NCBI GenBank assembly: GCA_025462735.1 | Contig: JAOAPC010000024.1 | Coordinates: 372,001 to 436,000, forward strand | Length of the DNA stretch: 64,000 nucleotides | Origin: Acidobacteriaceae bacterium | GTDB taxonomy: Bacteria; Acidobacteriota; Terriglobia; Terriglobales; Acidobacteriaceae | Direction of reading: 5' to 3' | In this document: piece by piece, positions 6,000 through 38,891 of the stretch | Position numbering within the stretch: position 1 is the first letter of the stretch | How the letters are laid out: every line of letters starts with the position of its first letter | The notes under the pieces: model-generated | What the model saw: the letters and a program-made list of their open reading frames with translations, nothing else | What the model was told of the DNA's origin: nothing | Databases searched by the model: none | Program-made: the position numbers and the translations under genes

Positions 6000-6451
6000 G
6001 GCAGCTGGACCGGACGGCCGCTCGTGTTTCGTCAAGAAGTACGGGAGGAAAGTCCGAACTCCACAGAGCAGTGTGCCGGATAACGTCCGGGAAGCCGATC
6101 TCAAAGTCGGTTGACGGCAAGTGCCACAGAAAACATACCGCCCTGCCGTTCCGCTGAGCCTTCGCTACATTCAGCGAGGTCTGAGAGGAACGGCGAGGTA
6201 AGGGTGAAAAGGTGCGGTAAGAGCGCACCGCCGCTCCAGTAATGGAGCGGGCAGGGCAAACCCCACACGGAGCAAGACCAAATAGGGAGGGAGCAGGTTC
6301 GGAGCGTAAGCTTCGACAGGCGCGTGCCGGCTCGGCGCGCTACAACCTCCGGGTAGGTCGCTTGAGCCGCGCAGTAATGCGCGGCCCAGAGGAATGGCCG
6401 TCCTGCGGGAGCAATCCCGCAGACAGAATTCGGCTTACAGGTCCAGCTGCC
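6000..6451 (+). ncRNA. rnpB: RNase P RNA, bacterial type A
   Basis: The 5' end GGCAGCTGGACC (6000-6011) pairs perfectly with GGTCCAGCTGCC (6440-6451), forming helix P1. Universal elements appear in order: GAGGAAAGTCCGAACTCC near 6045-6062, the downstream ACAGAG, GGCAAACCCC near 6256, AGAGGAATGGCC near 6390-6401, and ACAGAATTCGGCTTACAG near 6423-6440. The length (452 nt) is in the upper range for type A. The RNA is the catalytic part of RNase P, which trims tRNA 5' leaders. The stretch after P1 is T-rich and may serve as its terminator. Confidence 0.97.
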
Positions 6452-6768
6452 TCGATGTATTTTGTTTTCTACCTTTTATTGAATCCGCTTCGTTGATTGG
6501 GACGCTGGCTTGACGTCGGCAAGAGATGCTCGATCACCAACCCGTGCTTAATCTGCATGCACAGCGCAAGCTCAAGGCTTCTTCCCCCTGGTTTTAAACA
6601 TTGTTTCTTATCGCTCTAAATTGAGCCACAATGACTCGGAAGAACCGCAAACGCCATAACAAAAGGCATACCCAAAATAAACCCGCGTCGGTTGGTAGTG
6701 CCATCCGATGGAAAGATGACATCGAGAACCCCACAGTTCACAATGCGGGAAAATGGGAGGAGTTAAAA
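6452..6768. other. Spacer after rnpB and leader of the next gene
   Basis: 317 bases. The first 40 are T-rich. The frame of the following gene is open back to an ATG at 6631 that lacks a ribosome binding site, giving a possible basic N-terminal extension of 46 residues (M-T-R-K-N-R-K-R-H-N-K-R-H). Nothing else was recognised. Confidence 0.45.
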
Positions 6769-27519: not shown

Positions 27520-27539
27520 CCCGGCACTGCCGTGCCGGG
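27520..27539 (+). terminator. Hairpin downstream of the hypothetical gene
   Basis: CCCGGCA pairs with TGCCGGG around a 6-base loop, followed by CTTTCCC rather than a clean T run, so it may be a weak terminator or a palindromic repeat. The 270 bases up to the F420 operon also contain other short palindromes (GCGGCCATTTATGGCCGC at 27656-27673; GAGCTTCAGCTC near 27700). Confidence 0.45.
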
Positions 27540-27744
27540 CTTTCCCGTTCCGTGCCTTCGGCACTGGGCAAATGCCGTGTGGCGCGGGCGCCCTCGCCTG
27601 CGCCGGTCTCTTCAGACCAAGGCAGGCTCGATAATGTTAAGACTACCGTGGAAGAGCGGCCATTTATGGCCGCGTTCAATTGAGGATCGCACGCGAGCGA
27701 GCTTCAGCTCGACAGGGGTTAGGGGGCAAACGGCGAGACACTCA

Positions 27745-29676: not shown

Positions 29677-30438
29677 TCACCGGAACAGATCGTTCTTTGC
29701 CGGCCGGATCAGCTCACGCGCACTTCCGAGCCCGCTCTGAAATGCGAGGCCGCGCACGATGCAAACCGGCGTACGGTTAAGCTTGCCGCAGACCAGGCCC
29801 GCCGCGCAAGCAACTTCGTCCGCGACCGCCTCGACGGTGGCGTGAAGCGCATATCCATGCGGGTCGCGCCCGCCTACATAGTTTGTTAGCGGCTTCATCC
29901 CAGCAACTCCGATTGCAACTTCGGTCAGGCCTTCGCGCCAGGGACGTCCGAAGGAATCGGAGATGATGACGGCGATCTTCGACCCAAACAGCCGGTTGAG
30001 CCGCGACCTAAGATTTGCGGCAGCACCGTCCGGATTTTTTGGTAGCAGCACCGCGCTCTTGCCGCCGTCAACATTCGACACATCTACTCCGCTGTTTGCA
30101 CACACCAAGCCATGCCGCGTCTCTGTGATCAGGACGCCTTTTTTTTTGCGAACAATCCGTCTGCTTTCCGATAGCGCCAGCTCGATTACCTGAGCGTCGG
30201 ATCCGCTCCGGCGCGACCATGATTTCGCCGCGGCGGACGGCTTAACGCTGCTGAGTCGCACCACCTGGCCTTCCGCTTTGGAAACGATCTTGTGCTTCAC
30301 CACCAAAACGTCACCAGTTTGCAATTTAAGCTTCTGATGCTTCAGCGCAGCGGCAAGTTTCTCCGCAAGATCGTCGCCGGGCAGGATCTCACCCTCGAAC
30401 GAGACCGGGATCACGCGAATCTCGCAGCTCGGATCCAT
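29677..30438 (-). CDS. cofE: Coenzyme F420-0:L-glutamate ligase
   Basis: 253 residues. Motifs: I-R-V-I-P-V-x-F-x-G-E-I-L-P-G-D-D-L, D-V-L-V-V-K-H-K-I-V-S-K-A-E-G, R-H-G-L-V-C-A-N-S-G-V-D-x-S-N-V, I-I-S-D-S-F-G-R-P-W-R-E-G, and G-V-A-G-M. It adds glutamate residues to F420-0 using GTP and a divalent metal. It is the single-domain CofE form and lacks the C-terminal nitroreductase-like domain of actinobacterial FbiB. The ATG overlaps the cofC stop (TGATG). Confidence 0.95.
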   Translation of the reverse strand: MDPSCEIRVIPVSFEGEILPGDDLAEKLAAALKHQKLKLQTGDVLVVKHKIVSKAEGQVVRLSSVKPSAAAKSWSRRSGSDAQVIELALSESRRIVRKKKGVLITETRHGLVCANSGVDVSNVDGGKSAVLLPKNPDGAAANLRSRLNRLFGSKIAVIISDSFGRPWREGLTEVAIGVAGMKPLTNYVGGRDPHGYALHATVEAVADEVACAAGLVCGKLNRTPVCIVRGLAFQSGLGSARELIRPAKNDLFR

Positions 30439-31187
30439 CAGGATTTCGCCGCGAGAAAGCCGCTGGCTTTTTTCGGAGCCTCGGAAGCTTTCAAAGTATT
30501 GGAGGCTTTCAGACCCTCGGAAGCTTTGAGACTATCGGAAGCGGGCGAGGCACTCAGTGCTTCGCCGAATCCAAACTTACGCGCCAGAAGCTGTGATCGT
30601 TTTTCTCCAGGGGCTTGTGCGAGCTCACGCAGGTCCTCCGGAGTATCTATATCTAGAGCGATTCTAGGCAGAGAGAGCACGACGCAAGACTTGTCGGTGC
30701 CAATTGCCGCTGCAAGGTGCGGCATGAAGCTGTCATTGCCAAAGCGCAGCGGAAATAGCGCCGCCGGCCTTCGTAGTACCCCGTTTGTGCCCCGCTTGTC
30801 TTCCGAAGGAACAAGCACAGATCCCGTCTCCGGACTGCTGTCGTAAATTGCGCGAATGTCGGAAGGTTCAATCAGAGGAATATCGCCAGGAATAACCAGT
30901 GTGCTCTCGACTCCCCGGGAATCGCATACACGCATCGCCATTTCGATTGCGTCTGTTTCGCTTAAGTTCGATTCATCCCGAATGATCTCGAATCCATATT
31001 GGTGCGCAAGCTCTATCGCAAAAGGATCGCTAGTCGCTAGCGACACTCCATCCCCGGCATACGCCGCAAGCGCCTCCACCACGTCCCACAGCATCGCCTG
31101 CGCGAGTTCAGTTCGCGCCTGCTGCGCCAGCACCGACGCCAGGCGCTGCTTGGCATTCGCGAGATTTTTAACGGGAAGAAGGATCAC
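30438..31187 (-). CDS. cofC: 2-phospho-L-lactate (or phosphoenolpyruvate/3-phosphoglycerate) guanylyltransferase
   Basis: 249 residues. The N-terminal 205 residues form the nucleotidyltransferase: I-L-L-P-V-K-N-L-A-N-A-K-Q-R-L-A, F-E-I-I-R-D-E-S-N-L-S-E-T-D-A-I, L-V-I-P-G-D-I-P-L-I, G-T-N-G-V-L-R-R-P and F-G-N-D-S-F. It activates a three-carbon phospho-acid with GTP for CofD; which acid it uses cannot be told from sequence. After the enzyme core is a tail of S-(E/D/N)-x-L-K-A hexapeptide repeats, unusual for CofC. It overlaps cofD by ATGA. Confidence 0.9.
   Translation of the reverse strand: MILLPVKNLANAKQRLASVLAQQARTELAQAMLWDVVEALAAYAGDGVSLATSDPFAIELAHQYGFEIIRDESNLSETDAIEMAMRVCDSRGVESTLVIPGDIPLIEPSDIRAIYDSSPETGSVLVPSEDKRGTNGVLRRPAALFPLRFGNDSFMPHLAAAIGTDKSCVVLSLPRIALDIDTPEDLRELAQAPGEKRSQLLARKFGFGEALSASPASDSLKASEGLKASNTLKASEAPKKASGFLAAKS
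30481..30542 (-). repeat. 18-bp tandem repeat inside the 3' end of cofC
   Basis: Three and a half units of an 18-base repeat (plus strand form TCGGAAGCTTTCAAAGTA, with variation) encode S-D-S-L-K-A / S-E-G-L-K-A / S-N-T-L-K-A / S-E-A-P-K-K at the C-terminus of CofC. The block lies outside the catalytic domain and within the last 110 bases of the gene. Confidence 0.85.
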
Positions 31188-32143
31188 TGGTTCCCCATCG
31201 CCGACTCGGCCAGAATTTCAGGGCAGGCAAGTGTCAGGGCCGCGCGCGCGATTCGCGTCTTGTCGTCCGAACTGCGCATCAGAATATTCGTGCAGTGTAC
31301 CTGAAGGCCACCGCTGCTCAGTGACTGCGCGCTTGCAGAATCGGAATCGTCGGCTATCAATACGTCGAGAAAATCTCTGTAAGCCTCCGCAATGCCAGCA
31401 ATCGAGACTTGCAATCCCTGCGCGATCATGAGATTCGCCGCCGGCCCGGAAACAGCAGCGTTGCCGATGATCGGGCTGACCGCGACCACCTTCGCTTGAG
31501 TCGTTTCTAAAGCTCCGCAAATTCCTGGGACTGCGAGAATCGGGCCAATGCTGGTTACGGGATTGCTGGGCGCAATCAGCACAGCCTGCGCGGAGGCGAT
31601 AGCCTCCAGCACTTCCGGTGCAGGCTCAGCTTCGGAGGCGCCTGCGAAGCGCACGGAGTTAACTGGATCCTGGTACCAGCGTTTCACAAAATATTCCTCA
31701 AAGCTGAGATCGCCGGCGGGCGTGTCGATCCTGGTCTCGACTCGCATCTCGCTCATGGGCAGAATGCGCGACCGGACGCCCAATTTCTCTGCGATATAAG
31801 ACGTCGCGTCTGAGAGCGTTTGCCCTTTCGACAGCAATTTCGTCCGGAGCAGATGCGTAGCCAGATCTCGATCGCCAACGCTGAACCACGCAGGTTCGCC
31901 CAAATCCTTCATTGCTTGCAGGCAATGAAAGGTATCTCCGCGAACTCCCCATCCGCGCTCGCTACTCAAGATGTCGGCAAGGACATAAGTAATGGAGTCT
32001 ACGTCAGGAGAAACATATAAGCCCCACCATTCATGATCGTCGCCAGTGTTCACGATAACCGTGAGTTCTTCAGGCGGAACCAGGCGGCGGAGGCCGTCCA
32101 CAAACTTAGCGCCACCTGTGCCGCCGGTAAGGACGACGATCAT
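31184..32143 (-). CDS. cofD: 2-phospho-L-lactate transferase (Fo to F420-0)
   Basis: 319 residues. CofD hallmarks: V-L-T-G-G-T-G-G-A-K-F-V-D-G-L, I-V-N-T-G-D-D-H-E-W-W-G-L-Y-V-S-P-D-V-D-S, W-F-x-V-G-D-R-D-L-A-T-H-L-L-R, and A-P-S-N-P-V-T-S-I-G-P-I-L. It transfers the phospho-acid from the GDP-activated intermediate made by CofC to Fo, giving F420-0 (or its dehydro form). Start and stop overlap cofG and cofC by ATGA, so translation is probably coupled. Confidence 0.96.
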   Translation of the reverse strand: MIVVLTGGTGGAKFVDGLRRLVPPEELTVIVNTGDDHEWWGLYVSPDVDSITYVLADILSSERGWGVRGDTFHCLQAMKDLGEPAWFSVGDRDLATHLLRTKLLSKGQTLSDATSYIAEKLGVRSRILPMSEMRVETRIDTPAGDLSFEEYFVKRWYQDPVNSVRFAGASEAEPAPEVLEAIASAQAVLIAPSNPVTSIGPILAVPGICGALETTQAKVVAVSPIIGNAAVSGPAANLMIAQGLQVSIAGIAEAYRDFLDVLIADDSDSASAQSLSSGGLQVHCTNILMRSSDDKTRIARAALTLACPEILAESAMGNQ

Positions 32144-33342
32144 GCCACCCTTCGTGCATAGCGCTCAGCGTCGGAAACCTGCATTAGCTTTTGTGACAGA
32201 AGGCCTGGCTTCAATGCCACACGTTCCATGAACTCTGGATAAACCGGCAGGCGCTGCCGTAATTCGAAACCTTTTGCTCGTGTTCGTCGCTCGAGATCAT
32301 CAACATGAGGCCAGGGCCGTTCAGGATTAATGAAATCCGGAGTGAGGGGAGAAACTCCGCCCCAGTCGTTGATGCCAGCATCCAGCAGTTGCTCATAATC
32401 CGGATCGGAGAGATTCGGCGGAGCCTGGAGATTCACCTCGGGCATGAGTAAACGCGCGACCGCAATCGTTCTCAGCATCTCGCCGCGACTTGGCTCAGGC
32501 CAGTTCCGCATAGGAATTCCAGGTTTAACCCGGAAATTCTGGATGATCACTTCTTGTATATGAGCGTAGCGGCGATGTAGATCGTGGATTGCGATCAGCG
32601 CATCCACGCGGTCTTCCGGCGATTCGCCAATGCCGATCAATATCCCCGTCGTAAACGGTACGCCTCGTTTGCCGGCCTCTTCGATTGTGCGCAAGCGTTT
32701 GGTGGGAAGTTTGTCTGGGGCGTTGTCGTGAGCCGCCCCTGCGGCGAGAAGCGCGGGGTTTATGGTCTCCAGCATAAGGCCCATGCTCGGCGATACCGCC
32801 GAAAGCCGCGCGATCCACTCGGCACTCATCAGCCCGGGATTCGGATGTGGCAACAAGCTGGTCTCGCGAAGCACCAGCTCACACATAGCCTCCAGATAAT
32901 GCAGCGTAGAGCGGAACCCACGTTTGCGCAATGTATCGCGCATCTCGGGAAAAATAAGTTCCGGCTTATCACCCAAAGAAAAAAGAGCTTCTGTGCATCC
33001 AAGTTTTTCGCTCGCACGAGCCACGTGCAGAACTTCGTCAGGTGTCATGGTATGCGCGCCCGGCTGTCCGGGGTCACGCCGGAATGTGCAGTAGCCACAG
33101 TAGTCGCGGCAAAGATTGGTCAGCGGAATAAAGACTTTGCGGGAGTGAGTGATCACGCCGGGCTTAAAGCGATCACGTGCTGCGCGAGCGTTCGCGAGTA
33201 GCTCTGGCAATTCGTCGTCAGATGCGCGAATCCAGCGGCAAGCCTCTTCGCGCGCAAGCGAAGACACCGAAGGCAGCTCAGTTGCGACCGCACTTCGGTC
33301 CGAAAAAACCGAGGAACCATCGCTTTGAGCTTGCCGGAGCAT
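32140..33342 (-). CDS. cofG: FO synthase subunit 1 (7,8-didemethyl-8-hydroxy-5-deazariboflavin synthase)
   Basis: 400 residues. Radical SAM site C78-R-D-Y-C82-G-Y-C85 in I-P-L-T-N-L-C; then A-L-F-S-L-G-D-K-P-E, H-P-N-P-G-L-M, and S-P-L-T-P-D-F-I-N-P-E-R-P-W-P near the end, all typical of CofG. It is the first gene of the operon cofG-cofD-cofC-cofE-cofH-npdG; most junctions overlap. Only about 140 bases separate it from a divergent flavin-reductase gene, so the promoters may share control. The first 35 residues before E-E-A-C-R-W are low in conservation, and a later start is possible. Confidence 0.95.
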   Translation of the reverse strand: MLRQAQSDGSSVFSDRSAVATELPSVSSLAREEACRWIRASDDELPELLANARAARDRFKPGVITHSRKVFIPLTNLCRDYCGYCTFRRDPGQPGAHTMTPDEVLHVARASEKLGCTEALFSLGDKPELIFPEMRDTLRKRGFRSTLHYLEAMCELVLRETSLLPHPNPGLMSAEWIARLSAVSPSMGLMLETINPALLAAGAAHDNAPDKLPTKRLRTIEEAGKRGVPFTTGILIGIGESPEDRVDALIAIHDLHRRYAHIQEVIIQNFRVKPGIPMRNWPEPSRGEMLRTIAVARLLMPEVNLQAPPNLSDPDYEQLLDAGINDWGGVSPLTPDFINPERPWPHVDDLERRTRAKGFELRQRLPVYPEFMERVALKPGLLSQKLMQVSDAERYARRVA

Positions 33343-33480
33343 TGAGATTCCGCCTTCCGCAAATCGCCAAAGAGCATCCTGATGCGAAGCCGAAGGATGG
33401 AACAGCCAACATCAAGAATCATAACGGAAGCGGCACCACGCCGGAAATCCAGTGTTCGTGGTACAAATCTGATTCGAGCC

Positions 33481-33978
33481 ATGAGTGCTACTCAGGAAGA
33501 GTTCCGTCGTGCGATGGGCTGCTTCGCAACCGGAGTCACGGTAATTACCGTTGACGACGAAGGCAAAGTGGAAGGAATGACTGCCAATGCCTTCACTTCG
33601 GTTTCGCTGTATCCGCTTCTGGTACTAGTTTGCGTCAGTCAAAAGGCCCGCACTCACGCGCACATTCACGCGCGCAAGCGGTTTGGCGTCAATGTGCTGT
33701 CAGAACATCAGCGAAGGATTTCAGAGTACTATGCGCTGGTCGATCACGATCCCGCCCGCGCTGAGCAGGAAGCGGGAGCAAGATTCGACCGGACAAAACA
33801 TGGCACACCCGTCTTATATGGCGCGCTTGCATACCTGGAATGCCGGTTGCAAAGCACGCAAGACGCGGGTGACCATACGATCTTCATCGCAGAAGTCGAA
33901 GACGTTGTTGCGCACGAAGGCAGACCTCTTCTTTATTTTCAATCTGCGTATCACGCCATCGGGCCCGAGCTGAAATAG
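33481..33978 (+). CDS. Flavin reductase-domain (FMN-binding split-barrel) protein
   Basis: 165 residues from ATG 33481; no clear ribosome binding site, and the frame is open further upstream. The Flavin_Reduct fold is visible in F-R-R-A-M-G-C-F-A-T-G-V-T-V-I-T-V, G-M-T-A-N-A-F-T-S-V-S-L-Y-P-L-L-V-L-V-C-V, F-G-V-N-V-L-S-E-H-Q, G-A-L-A-Y-L-E-C-R-L and G-D-H-T-I-F-I-A-E-V-E-D-V. Such proteins reduce free flavin with NAD(P)H or serve as the reductase of two-component monooxygenases. Divergent placement from cofG makes a role in deazaflavin metabolism possible, but that is inference only. Confidence 0.88.
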   Translation: MSATQEEFRRAMGCFATGVTVITVDDEGKVEGMTANAFTSVSLYPLLVLVCVSQKARTHAHIHARKRFGVNVLSEHQRRISEYYALVDHDPARAEQEAGARFDRTKHGTPVLYGALAYLECRLQSTQDAGDHTIFIAEVEDVVAHEGRPLLYFQSAYHAIGPELK

Positions 33979-35442: not shown

Positions 35443-35516
35443 AGGATCAGTCCAACTAATTTTGATGACAGCATATCTTGGCGACACATAGGATGCGGCA
35501 GACTAGAATCTGGTAT

Positions 35517-35963
35517 ATGGCGGGACAGCCGGATTTTCGTGTACCGACGGCGCGTGAACGCGTATTCAACCGCGCTTACGGATTCCTGGTTGGTATGGGA
35601 CTCGGTTTTCCTTACAACTATCTGCTGCAGGTGCGGGGCAGAAAGTCTGGCAAACTTTATTCGACGCCCATCGACCTACTTGAGCTCGATGGCAAGAAGT
35701 TTCTGGTTGCGCCTCGAGGTCGAGCGCAATGGGTACGCAACGCAGAAGTGGCTGGCGAAATTGCTTTAAAGAAGGGACGAGGCGTTCAAAAATTCCGCTT
35801 GCGCCCATTGTCTGGGCCCGAGAAAATGGACGTCCTGAAAACATACCTGGACCGATTCCGACGTGAGGTGCAGACCTATTTCCCGATTCCGGCTGGTTCG
35901 CCAGTCGCACAGTTCGCGGGTATCGCGGACAAGTATCCGGCCTTCGAATTGATCCGGGCATAA
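35517..35963 (+). CDS. Deazaflavin (F420)-dependent nitroreductase/quinone reductase family (Ddn-like)
   Basis: 148 residues from ATG 35517 (in-frame ATG at 35493 also possible). The DUF385/Ddn split-barrel pattern is clear: R-V-F-N-R-A-Y-G-F-L-V-G-M-G-L-G-F-P-Y-N-Y-L-L-Q-V-R-G-R-K-S-G-K, Y-S-T-P-I-D-L-L-E-L-D-G-K-K-F-L-V-A-P-R-G and Q-W-V-R-N-A-E-V-A-G-E-I-A-L. R-G-R-K-S-G-K...T-P is the signature that holds the F420 phosphate/glutamate tail. Family members use F420H2 to reduce quinones, nitro compounds or enones. It lies 2.2 kb from the cofG start, which fits an F420-using organism. Substrate unknown. Confidence 0.87.
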   Translation: MAGQPDFRVPTARERVFNRAYGFLVGMGLGFPYNYLLQVRGRKSGKLYSTPIDLLELDGKKFLVAPRGRAQWVRNAEVAGEIALKKGRGVQKFRLRPLSGPEKMDVLKTYLDRFRREVQTYFPIPAGSPVAQFAGIADKYPAFELIRA

Positions 35964-36084: not shown

Positions 36085-36855
36085 TCACTCCAGCACTCCA
36101 TCTTCCGCCTTCTCTGTTTTCCACTTCGCTGCCGCACGCAGAAATTCGACAACAATCGGATGGGGCTTGCCTGGTTTCGACGAGAGCTGCGGCTGAAACA
36201 ATGTTGCGATGAAGAACTTGTGTTTGGGCGCTTCGATGGCGCGGATCTCACCGTTCTCTCCGCGGGCCGCTATGGCAAATCCGGCCTCAATGAGCGGGCC
36301 CTCAAAATCGGGATTCACTTCGTAATTGCAGAAGAACTCTTCCGTGACCACATCCTTTTTATAGAAAGCATGCAGGTACGATCCTGGGCGAATGCGAATT
36401 TCTGGAATCTTCCCCGAAAGCTTTGGCGCGTTTGCCCCGCGATTGGGGACTGCACAGCTGACGGGAGAAATAACAATGTTCTTTGAGCCGGAGTTGTTCT
36501 CGGCCGAATCGGCATCCTTGATGCCCAACACATTGCGCGCACACTCTACCAGAGTGTATTGAAAGCCCCCTCAGGTGCCGACGAACGGCCAATCGCGACG
36601 CCGGGCAAACTCAATCCCGCGGAGCATTCCGTCAAAGCTCTTGTAAGGGCTTCCCGGACCCGCCCACACGGCGTCGAAAGCTCCGAGTTTTTTCTCAAGT
36701 TCGAGATCGAGCAACGAGTCGGTGGGCAGCCATTGCGCCTTCGCAGAGATTTTCAGCTTGTCGGCTGCATGCTGAATGGATTCCTCGACCGCAGGAAGAG
36801 TGGGCGAAGCGGAATCGTAGTCTCCGAGAATGCCGATCTCTACGGGCTCTGGCAC
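36085..36855 (-). CDS. CTP-synthase-like glutamine amidotransferase with in-frame TGA at the nucleophile: candidate selenoprotein
   Basis: Read through one TGA (36573-36571) the frame gives 256 residues. Start: I-G-I-L-G-D-Y-D-S-A-S-P-T; then L-G-A-F-D-A-V-W-A-G-P-G-S-P-Y-K-S-F-D-G; then W-P-F-V-G-T-[TGA]-G-G-F-Q-Y-T-L-V-E-C-A-R-N-V-L-G; then I-R-I-R-P-G-S-Y-L-H and F-F-I-A-T-L-F-Q-P-Q. This is the class I amidotransferase group related to the CTP synthase C-terminus; in that family the residue at TGA is the nucleophilic Cys (G-T-C-G-G-F-Q). No frameshift or other stop is present on either side. A GGU-loop hairpin begins 13 bases after the TGA. Selenocysteine is the favoured reading; a nonsense mutation is the alternative. 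The usual H-x-E of class I enzymes reads F-Q-P-Q here, so glutaminase activity is doubtful. Upstream neighbour lemA lies 41 bases away. Confidence 0.72.
36541..36557 (-). promoter_or_regulatory. Candidate bacterial SECIS hairpin
   Basis: Minus strand: ACACTCT, loop GGT, AGAGTGT, a perfect 7-bp stem (36557-36541) that a further T-G pair can extend. The loop begins after 20 bases following the TGA. Bacterial SECIS elements are hairpins right after the UGA with a small loop starting with G, and the E. coli fdhF element also presents GGU in its loop at a similar distance (known from the literature). The codons forming the 3' arm specify V-E-C, while relatives usually have an aromatic residue in place of C; this is what a structural constraint on the RNA could cause. 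Confidence 0.6.
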
Positions 36856-36895: not shown

Positions 36896-37465
36896 CTATT
36901 TTCCCGAGGCGAACGACATTGCCACATCAGCCTTGTCTGCTTCGTCCACTTTCAGCATGGTGCGAGGAGTGAGGCGCATGAACGCGGCCACAAAGGTGTC
37001 AGGGACCTGCTGGATGCGAATGTTAAACGTATTGACTGAGTCGTTGTAGAACTCGCGGCGGTCAGCGATCTGGTTTTCCAGCGATGTGATGCGTTGCTGC
37101 AGTAGCTGGAAGTTGCTGTTCGCCTTCAGATCGGGATAATTCTCGGCCACGGCAAAAAATCCGCGTAGCGCAGAGGTCATGCTCTGGTCGGCCTGTGCTT
37201 TCTGGTCGAACGTCACTGCCTGCTGATACTGGTTACGGGCCTGCGTGACCTTCGTCATGGTGTCGCGCTCAAAGTTGGCGTAGCCCTTGGTGACGTCGAG
37301 CAACTTACTCAATTCGTCGTGCCGCTGTTTGAGCAGAACGTCGATGTTTGCCCAGGCTTTGTCGATGTCATTCTTGATCGCGACCAGTCCGTTGTAAATC
37401 GTGGTCAGATAAATCATGACTCCAGCAATCGCGAACAAAAAACCAAGCAGGATAATGGTGTTCAT
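36896..37465 (-). CDS. LemA family protein
   Basis: 189 residues from M-N-T-I-I-L-L-G, whose ATG follows GGAG by 6 bases. One N-terminal membrane helix (about 3-24) is followed by the LemA helical bundle: I-Y-N-G-L-V-A-I-K-N-D-I-D-K-A-W-A-N-I-D-V-L-L-K-Q-R-H-D-E-L and Y-P-D-L-K-A-N-S-N-F-Q-L-L-Q-Q-R-I-T-S-L-E-N-Q-I-A-D-R-R-E-F-Y-N. The C-terminus is outside the cytoplasmic membrane in the usual model. Role unknown. LemA genes often sit beside GIDE-type membrane proteins, as here, where it follows by 18 bases. Confidence 0.95.
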   Translation of the reverse strand: MNTIILLGFLFAIAGVMIYLTTIYNGLVAIKNDIDKAWANIDVLLKQRHDELSKLLDVTKGYANFERDTMTKVTQARNQYQQAVTFDQKAQADQSMTSALRGFFAVAENYPDLKANSNFQLLQQRITSLENQIADRREFYNDSVNTFNIRIQQVPDTFVAAFMRLTPRTMLKVDEADKADVAMSFASGK

Positions 37466-37483
37466 TGTTTTCTCCAGCAAAAT

Positions 37484-38623
37484 TTATAGCCAATTGAAGT
37501 GTGCAAGTAAGACATAAACGCTCACAAGTGTCAGGGCTGGCCCTCCCCAAATCATCAGGGTGGACTTCAAGCCGAGCGCCAGCACCAAGTCGCGCTGGCT
37601 TCTCCACGAAATGAAAAATGTTGCCTCGTGAGTTCCCTTCATCAAAACAACCGTAGGATGCAAATCGAAAGTTTCATTTGCTTCCAGGTTCTTTTCTGCT
37701 GTCCCTGTTTTCGCGGGCGCTGACGTAGCCACCGCGGACGGCGAAGAATAAGATCCGACCTGAGTTGCTACCTGAGGGCTCACACCGGCAGCCGCCCATG
37801 CTAAGGGACTGGTTATCCCAGCTTTCAGTAGAGCTGCAGCAATTTTTTGCTGCTGCGTCATTTCTGTAGCCGGCACCGCTGCGGAATCTCCAGATAGGCG
37901 CACGATCTGCTGCGACCCATTGCCGTTGCCGTCGCCAGCAACCTTCACCGAAGCCAGACCTGGCGCCACAACCGAAGCTCCCACCGCAGCGGCTTGTGGG
38001 GAACTGTGCCCGGCCCAGGTCGGCATGACGCTCGTATTCAAGCCAGGATTTTGCGACAGTGTTCCCAGCACAAATAGATCATCCTTCGGCCTGATGCAGT
38101 ACTCTTCCACCTTTATCCGCTTGCTAGAATCCACGCCGTGACGTGACAGAAAACTGAACACGCTGCCCGGCATTTCTGGGCCGCTCAACAAAATCGAACC
38201 GTTGTACTCTTGGTGCAAGGCGCACTGCAGATCTATTTCCGCACCGCTGGGATCTACCAACAGTCTGCCGGAACCATCATCCACATAGAAAGGGACATGA
38301 AGGCTTTCCTCGGCCGCCTTCACCCATTCACTGTCTTTGCCGCGCTGTTTCCACTGCCAGGCGATGCTGCGGTAGTAATAACAAGTCGTCTGCTTAAGGG
38401 GTGAGTTGACCACGTACGGCCCGGTCGCTAGTCCGTTGATTTCAACCAGTCCCATGGACGCGCTGCGGATTTTCGACGCCGGCGTATTCAGGATGAGCCG
38501 CTTGCGCTGTAGCAGACGAAAGCCACGATAGAACAAGTACATGCCGGCTACCCCGCCCGCGGCTGCCATGGCGAGCAAATTCACCGGTGTGGAATCGAAA
38601 AAGATGGCCGCAAATTGCGTCAT
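37484..38623 (-). CDS. GIDE (MUL1-like) domain membrane protein
   Basis: 379 residues from M-T-Q-F-A-A-I-F-F (an in-frame ATG at 38650 is also possible; neither has a good ribosome binding site). An N-terminal helix (N-L-L-A-M-A-A-A-G-G-V-A-G-M-Y-L-F), then the GIDE domain (about 40-190): I-R-S-A-S-M-G-L-V-E-I-N-G-L-A, C-Y-Y-Y-R-S-I-A-W-Q-W, P-F-Y-V-D-D-G-S-G-R-L-L-V-D-P. A poorly conserved Ala/Ser/Val-rich middle (about 210-310) and a final pair of hydrophobic segments follow. In eukaryotes this domain belongs to mitochondrial E3 ligases, but bacterial proteins lack the RING finger and their task is unknown. Pairs with lemA as a likely operon. Confidence 0.85.
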   Translation of the reverse strand: MTQFAAIFFDSTPVNLLAMAAAGGVAGMYLFYRGFRLLQRKRLILNTPASKIRSASMGLVEINGLATGPYVVNSPLKQTTCYYYRSIAWQWKQRGKDSEWVKAAEESLHVPFYVDDGSGRLLVDPSGAEIDLQCALHQEYNGSILLSGPEMPGSVFSFLSRHGVDSSKRIKVEEYCIRPKDDLFVLGTLSQNPGLNTSVMPTWAGHSSPQAAAVGASVVAPGLASVKVAGDGNGNGSQQIVRLSGDSAAVPATEMTQQQKIAAALLKAGITSPLAWAAAGVSPQVATQVGSYSSPSAVATSAPAKTGTAEKNLEANETFDLHPTVVLMKGTHEATFFISWRSQRDLVLALGLKSTLMIWGGPALTLVSVYVLLAHFNWL

Positions 38624-38891
38624 GAAATAGGCGCTGCTGGAGGAACACACTTTCCAGTCTCACGCAGTGTAGCCGAGCCGCAAAGCACATGGCCGTTAAA
38701 AGAGGTGGAATTCGCTTACCGGAGTAACCCTCCGAGGCAACAAGTTCCCGCCGTGTGACCTTCGTAATTGCGGCTCCCCGTTACCGCATTTTCGAGTCTC
38801 GCGATGCCGCCTAGAATCTTGAAGTGGACGACTCCGCGCAGGCTGGAGGTCCGCAAACGCCTGACTTTGTCGTCTGGCGAGAAACCTTCCG

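Follow-up and report, generated by a model that had tools for sequence, protein, structure and literature searches.

A gene that probably belongs to the NCBIfam family NF004836, found within a 64,000-nucleotide stretch of an Acidobacteriaceae genome (the window), is almost certainly a functional selenoprotein gene with selenocysteine (Sec) at residue 95. The minus-strand frame 36855-36085 encodes 94 residues, a TGA at 36573-36571 in the context WPFVGT-U-GGFQ, and then 161 residues up to the terminal TGA. In an alignment that includes two PyrG sequences, the column of this TGA corresponds to Cys379 in the E. coli protein. The original prediction of an in-frame TGA at the nucleophile codon of a CTP-synthase-like GATase gene, with intact codons on either side, was thus borne out, and re-reading of the frame gave a single internal stop. 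Standard annotation would end this gene at residue 94. The frame and its internal codon are located in the window as follows.

36085..36855, minus strand: open frame of the predicted selenoprotein, 256 residues, Sec at 95, GTG start, terminal TGA at 36085-36087
36571..36573, minus strand: predicted Sec-UGA codon at the nucleophile position, residue 95, equivalent to Cys379 of E. coli PyrG

The read-through protein was aligned with positions 1-227 of the 228 positions of NF004836 at 259.2 bits, 0.8 bit under the curated cut-off of 260 bits (251.1 bits in the genome search). NF004836 was the top match among three NCBIfam families, with the two CTP synthase models at 138.3 and 136.1 bits, and Pfam GATase PF00117 was matched at 38 bits (cut-off 22.8). 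With NF004836 (PRK06186, CTP synthase C-terminal region-related (seleno)protein) the window protein shares the full-length alignment, the GxUxG / GxCxG motif, present as GTUGG, and the standalone domain. The N-terminal synthase domain of CTP synthase is absent from the 256-residue frame, and a separate 557-residue PyrG is encoded in the same genome.

A search of the window's genome (4.36 Mb, 97% complete) for selA, selB, selC and selD, the check proposed along with the original prediction, returned all four. The tRNA-Sec scored 69.9 bits and carries the anticodon TCA (ARAGORN), SelB scored 374.7 bits, and SelA scored 543.7 bits together with a neighbouring stretch. SelD (G000:C18:75659-76648, in L179) itself contains one in-frame TGA. 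Two formate dehydrogenases (G000:C17:108187-111342 and G000:C18:251930-254983) also have one in-frame TGA each, in the contexts V-U-H and I-U-H. Because the complete set of components occurs together with in-frame TGA codons in SelD and both formate dehydrogenases, the Sec system of this genome is very likely in use.

Within the genus, the gene was matched in six of eight genomes, with no match in the remaining two (65 and 96% complete). The codon is TGA in five of the six and TGC in one. The four TGA congeners share 85, 76, 76, and 52% protein identity with the window protein, and each has one TGA and no further stop inside the match. This indicates that the TGA at this codon is more than a chance hit, as had been argued. 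In the Cys congener (G402; 70% identity, genome completeness 99%), no match to SelB reaches the cut-off: the top one covers positions 1-262 of 581 with 193 bits and presumably represents a different elongation factor.

The substitution rates between the window gene and its 85% congener were dN 0.055 and dS 1.354 after the UGA, and 0.125 and 1.338 before it; dS was reported as -1, presumably saturated, for several other pairs. The frame past the UGA is under purifying selection. The 11 codons directly after the UGA are identical in 10/11, 10/11, and 11/11 cases in the three nearest TGA congeners, and same-residue codons farther downstream are identical in 71/133, 54/113, and 60/119 cases. In the Cys congener, 4/9 codons are identical in the 11-codon stretch. 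The RNA stretch after the UGA is itself conserved where the TGA is present.

The stop could instead stem from a nonsense mutation, from an error in sequencing or assembly, or from pseudogene decay. In favour of this, the gene branches within Cys forms, a Cys codon is one substitution away from TGA, and the assembly has draft status, with 24 contigs. Against this explanation stand the TGA at the same codon in four congeners as distant as 52% identity, the strong purifying selection after the codon, and the hairpin stem described below, which most TGA forms share and every Cys row lacks. Error and decay, both named beforehand as refuting outcomes, are practically excluded by the congeners and the selection.

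The Sec and Cys forms were then compared among more distant relatives. In a phylum sample of 396 genomes, 13 have a match scoring 250 bits or more, and three of these have TGA with the window's genome counted; the next listed match, at 175 bits, is in the CTP synthase range. Among 398 family genomes, 108 had a match with an E value no higher than 1e-40. In this search TGA was flagged in ten rows, nine of them at the Sec codon and one at the terminal stop, and a copy in G481 was flagged with TAA. The copy with the terminal TGA (G427) had been a candidate Sec form without SelB; this candidate was rejected, and the copy is a Cys form. The 25 stop-free copies that were read (L142-L166) have TGC in 17 and TGT in 8, and most other stop-free copies of the family search lie outside this count. 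A scan of named genomes found at least 574 relatives, and TGA stands at the codon in six of the best 80: Bryobacteraceae L091, Acidobacteria L093, Chloroflexi L094, and Rokubacteria L099, L113, and L135. The scan is biased towards Cys forms, Cys being obligatory in one of the two patterns used.

The mixture of TGA, TGC, and TGT that the original prediction proposed to look for in homologues was therefore seen, and over 99 aligned family rows the nucleophile column is Cys in 83 and Sec-UGA in 16. Such a column speaks against UGA readthrough with another amino acid or a regulatory role of the UGA, as do the complete Sec machinery and the SECIS-like hairpin; nothing specific favours this alternative, which is highly improbable. 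Insertion of Sec at the TGA is strongly supported by the machinery, the hairpin, the codon mixture, and the selection on both sides of the codon.

A quick tree of the 99 rows has at least eight Sec/Cys state changes, at least four of them forced by starred branches; it carries a long-branch warning and does not tell the direction of change. The window clade is nested inside a large Cys clade. It may have regained Sec, kept Sec while many relatives lost it, or acquired the SECIS stretch by recombination. Sec-to-Cys changes are stated to be still rare in prokaryotes in the accessible text of a recent review (PMC13188914). One genome, G633, has a Sec copy (L167, on G633:C79) and a second stop-free copy (G633:C58); one of the two may be foreign since the contamination of this genome is given as 6%.

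A hairpin follows the UGA in the window.

36540..36558, minus strand: predicted SECIS hairpin, 8-bp stem, 3-nt GGU loop at 36550-36548, 20 nt from UGA to loop

The sequence downstream of the UGA reads UACACUCU-GGU-AGAGUGUG, and the 19-nt hairpin has a folding energy of -7.7 kcal/mol. The bacterial SECIS model, as given in PMC13188914 (Fig. 2 legend), has a loop of 3-9 nt with G in the first two positions, a stem of 4-16 bp, a spacing of 16-37 nt, and an MFE of at most -7.5. The window hairpin fits all four constraints as worded in that legend. SelB and Sec-tRNA-Sec would bind this hairpin, which starts at the 13th nucleotide past the UGA, and Sec would thereby enter a class I amidotransferase fold at its nucleophile elbow; these elements are read from the sequence and the insertion is deduced from them.

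All eight pairs occur at the same place in 13 of the 16 Sec forms, from Acidobacteria, Chloroflexi, and Rokubacteria, and in none of 77 Cys rows, the best two of which have seven pairs. Nine of 102 rows were missed by the motif pattern, namely L097, which has an assembly gap at the site, and eight additional Cys forms. None of these eight has the full stem, giving 0/85 Cys rows overall, in which at least one gene is represented by two rows (L035 and L064, with zero distance between them in the tree). The 25 Cys loci L142-L166, partly the same genes again, have at most six pairs and no full stem (0/25). The common stem is missing in three Sec forms (L113, L135, and L170), where different hairpins were found; the loop of L170 lies 15 nt after the UGA, just beyond the published 16-37. 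The close Sec forms L170 and L037 have different hairpins.

The 19-nt hairpin energies are -7.7 kcal/mol in four Sec forms, the window among them, -7.4 in five, -5.8 in L141, and -3.5 in L167, and L037 and L168 reach -10.0 kcal/mol with a longer stem. With just the short hairpin counted, the -7.5 kcal/mol of the model is thus reached in only part of the Sec forms. The mean folding energy over 42 nt is -11.9 for Sec forms vs -8.5 for Cys rows. Stem pairs co-vary from UA to CG in four rows and from CG to UA in one. This covariation is modest: the score was equalled by 1/500 shuffles, the two double-change pairs by 53/500, and the further pair types by 459/500. Sliding the partners by +2 gave equally many double changes, in two pairs and five cells, with 61.7% of cells paired vs 89.1% unshifted. 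Random synonymous recoding of the window stretch gave the full eight pairs in 1.1% of draws. The protein motif eases reaching the hairpin, which is used by most TGA forms and by no Cys row.

The presence of SelB was compared with the form of the gene in 80 chosen genomes, two of which had no match in the gene search. SelB is over the cut-off in 15 of 16 genomes with a Sec form vs 40 of 62 with a stop-free copy (43 read as Cys, 19 assigned by stop-free status alone); G633, with one copy of each kind, was tallied as Sec. The 16th Sec genome, that of L091, has a SelB fragment of 182 positions at 220 bits. The one-sided Fisher p is 0.018, or 0.0024 with this fragment counted, relatedness being ignored in both. 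Cys stands in the place of Sec in many relatives, including the congener without detectable SelB.

AlphaFold modelling of the window protein, with 60 sequences and Sec modelled as Cys, gave a pLDDT of 94.9. The nearest solved folds are the glutaminase domains of CTP synthases, with E. coli 8fve 286-545 at Z 34.0 and an rmsd of 2.1 over 241 aligned residues. The 99 family rows were aligned with the two PyrG sequences for a comparison of residues. We take His515 and Glu517 of PyrG to be the catalytic His and Glu, and Arg470 and the GGFG oxyanion loop to be catalytic as well. Three further sites in the window protein are needed for this comparison.

36454..36456, minus strand: codon of invariant Cys134, Glu418 in E. 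coli PyrG
36328..36330, minus strand: codon of invariant Cys176, His469 in E. coli PyrG
36187..36198, minus strand: FQPQ, where PyrG has F-H-P-E, both the catalytic His and Glu being replaced by Gln

The window and family proteins share with the PyrG glutaminase domain the fold, the nucleophile elbow (Cys/Sec379 in 99/99 rows), Gln383 (99/99), and usually Glu403 (94/99). They differ in several other respects. The synthase domain is lacking, and Sec replaces Cys in 16/99 rows. Of the 98 rows that have a letter at the His515 equivalent, none keeps His: 78 have Gln, 13 have Val, and 7 have Leu. At the Glu517 equivalent, Gln is found in 74/98 rows and Glu in 23/98, so that Glu is absent from 75/98, the window included. 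The GGFG loop has mostly become P-G/A-S-P (mostly P-G-S-P), and the Arg470 equivalent is retained in 10/99. A Cys has been added at PyrG position 469 in 99/99 rows and at position 418 in every row with a letter; both residues, Cys176 and Cys134 of the window protein, are also invariant in a set of 60 rows. Compared with most rows of a 13-row family set, the window protein carries roughly 10 additional residues downstream of Cys134. A triad-type class I amidotransferase has a nucleophile at the elbow together with the His and Glu of an HPE motif; here the nucleophile, Cys or Sec, is in place, and the window has QPQ instead of the motif.

The claim that all family motifs are kept consequently fails relative to CTP synthase, with His in 0/98 rows and Glu lost from 75/98, and the amidotransferase identity was not borne out, the catalytic His being absent from 98/98. 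Ordinary glutamine hydrolysis is disfavoured because the catalytic His is lost, and from these residues the protein is probably not a glutaminase. Thiol or selenol chemistry is favoured because the nucleophile is retained and two invariant Cys are present. We lean towards a standalone protein, with neither a synthase domain nor the glutaminase His, in which Sec95 would carry out selenol/thiol chemistry (redox or group transfer) in place of glutamine hydrolysis; Cys134 and Cys176 are perhaps its partners. Sec could instead be inserted into an ordinary glutaminase, amidotransferase, or hydrolase as a better nucleophile, with another residue replacing His. The clear fold of a CTP synthase glutaminase domain, the retention of Gln383 in every row and of Glu403 in nearly every row, and the PF00117 match well over its cut-off agree with such an enzyme, but the absence of His515 from every row, the altered oxyanion loop, and the rarity of Arg470 make it unlikely. 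Selenol or thiol chemistry at Sec95 remains our preferred reading. A tentative, somewhat less than even evolutionary scenario is that a class I amidotransferase fold became a Sec/Cys-dependent redox or group-transfer enzyme: His was dropped, two invariant Cys were gained, one at His469, and Sec was adopted in some lineages, where the SECIS would evolve easily because the hairpin is already half encoded in the protein motif that follows the nucleophile.

The family had been presented as not an established selenoprotein family. This novelty claim fails because the family already appears in PMC12013277, in PMC13188914, and in NCBIfam, where NF004836 is named '(seleno)protein'. In the portions of these papers available to us, deep-Sep (2025, PMC12013277) reported a Sec form of a PyrG-like amidotransferase, and Table 1 of the 2026 review (PMC13188914), which covers known and predicted families, gives NF004836 with the Sec motif GxUxG and the example WP_419249736.1. 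The deep-Sep protein, a COG0504/PyrG selenoprotein of Desulfosediminicola ganghwensis, is from another organism than the window's; going by its description there, it likewise carries Sec in an amidotransferase resembling PyrG, has homologues with TGA and with Cys, and comes with a SECIS-like structure. PRK06186 was not found in print in the literature search, and NF004836 was found in one paper. The His loss, a cross-phylum SECIS, and Acidobacteriota members were not met in the available parts of the literature on NF004836, supplements and subscription papers being outside the search. Added here are members from Acidobacteriota, Rokubacteria, and Chloroflexi, a SECIS common to several phyla, a Sec/Cys switch within one genus, and the loss of His (0/98) with two invariant Cys.

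A barely studied selenoprotein family is thereby extended to these three phyla, and one genus allows Sec to be compared with Cys forms, and SelB presence with its apparent absence. Most uncharacterised selenoproteins are expected to serve redox functions, according to PMC13188914; an amidotransferase fold without the catalytic His, with selenium at the former glutaminase nucleophile, would be a test of that expectation.

Near, same-strand neighbours, 30 upstream and 21 downstream, were chosen by hand and searched with Pfam, and no recurrent partner was found among them. The commonest upstream were GNAT acetyltransferases (4/30), GIDE (3/30), and LemA (2/30), and downstream PALP and CarboxypepD_reg (2/21 each). 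The neighbourhood was rejected as a functional clue, nothing being consistent across loci. In the window, genes with LemA and GIDE domains lie directly upstream of the selenoprotein gene (36896-38650, minus). Copies in a plasmid collection from Klebsiella and Enterobacter adjoin DUF488. In the Klebsiella records L187 and L189 the homologue is annotated as CTP synthase and stands beside DUF523 and DUF488 genes. DUF523 is a TudS-type desulfidase family, and it is counted among the deep-Sep selenoprotein families in the available text of PMC12013277. A tblastn search with the Klebsiella DUF523, DUF488, and transporter proteins, at a threshold of E 1e-5, gave no match either in the window or in 100 further loci, many of which have short flanks.

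The window also contains a flavin reductase (33382-33978) and a Pfam F420H2-dependent quinone reductase-like protein. Near these reductase genes, the genes at 29677-33342 (minus) and 35478-35963 (plus) are look-alikes of CofE, CofC, CofD, and FO synthase, which we take to belong to coenzyme F420 biosynthesis. Two structured RNAs were detected on the plus strand of the window, an Acido-Lenti-1 RNA at 27520-27565 (51 bits) and a bacterial RNase P class A at 6002-6453 (300.5 bits).
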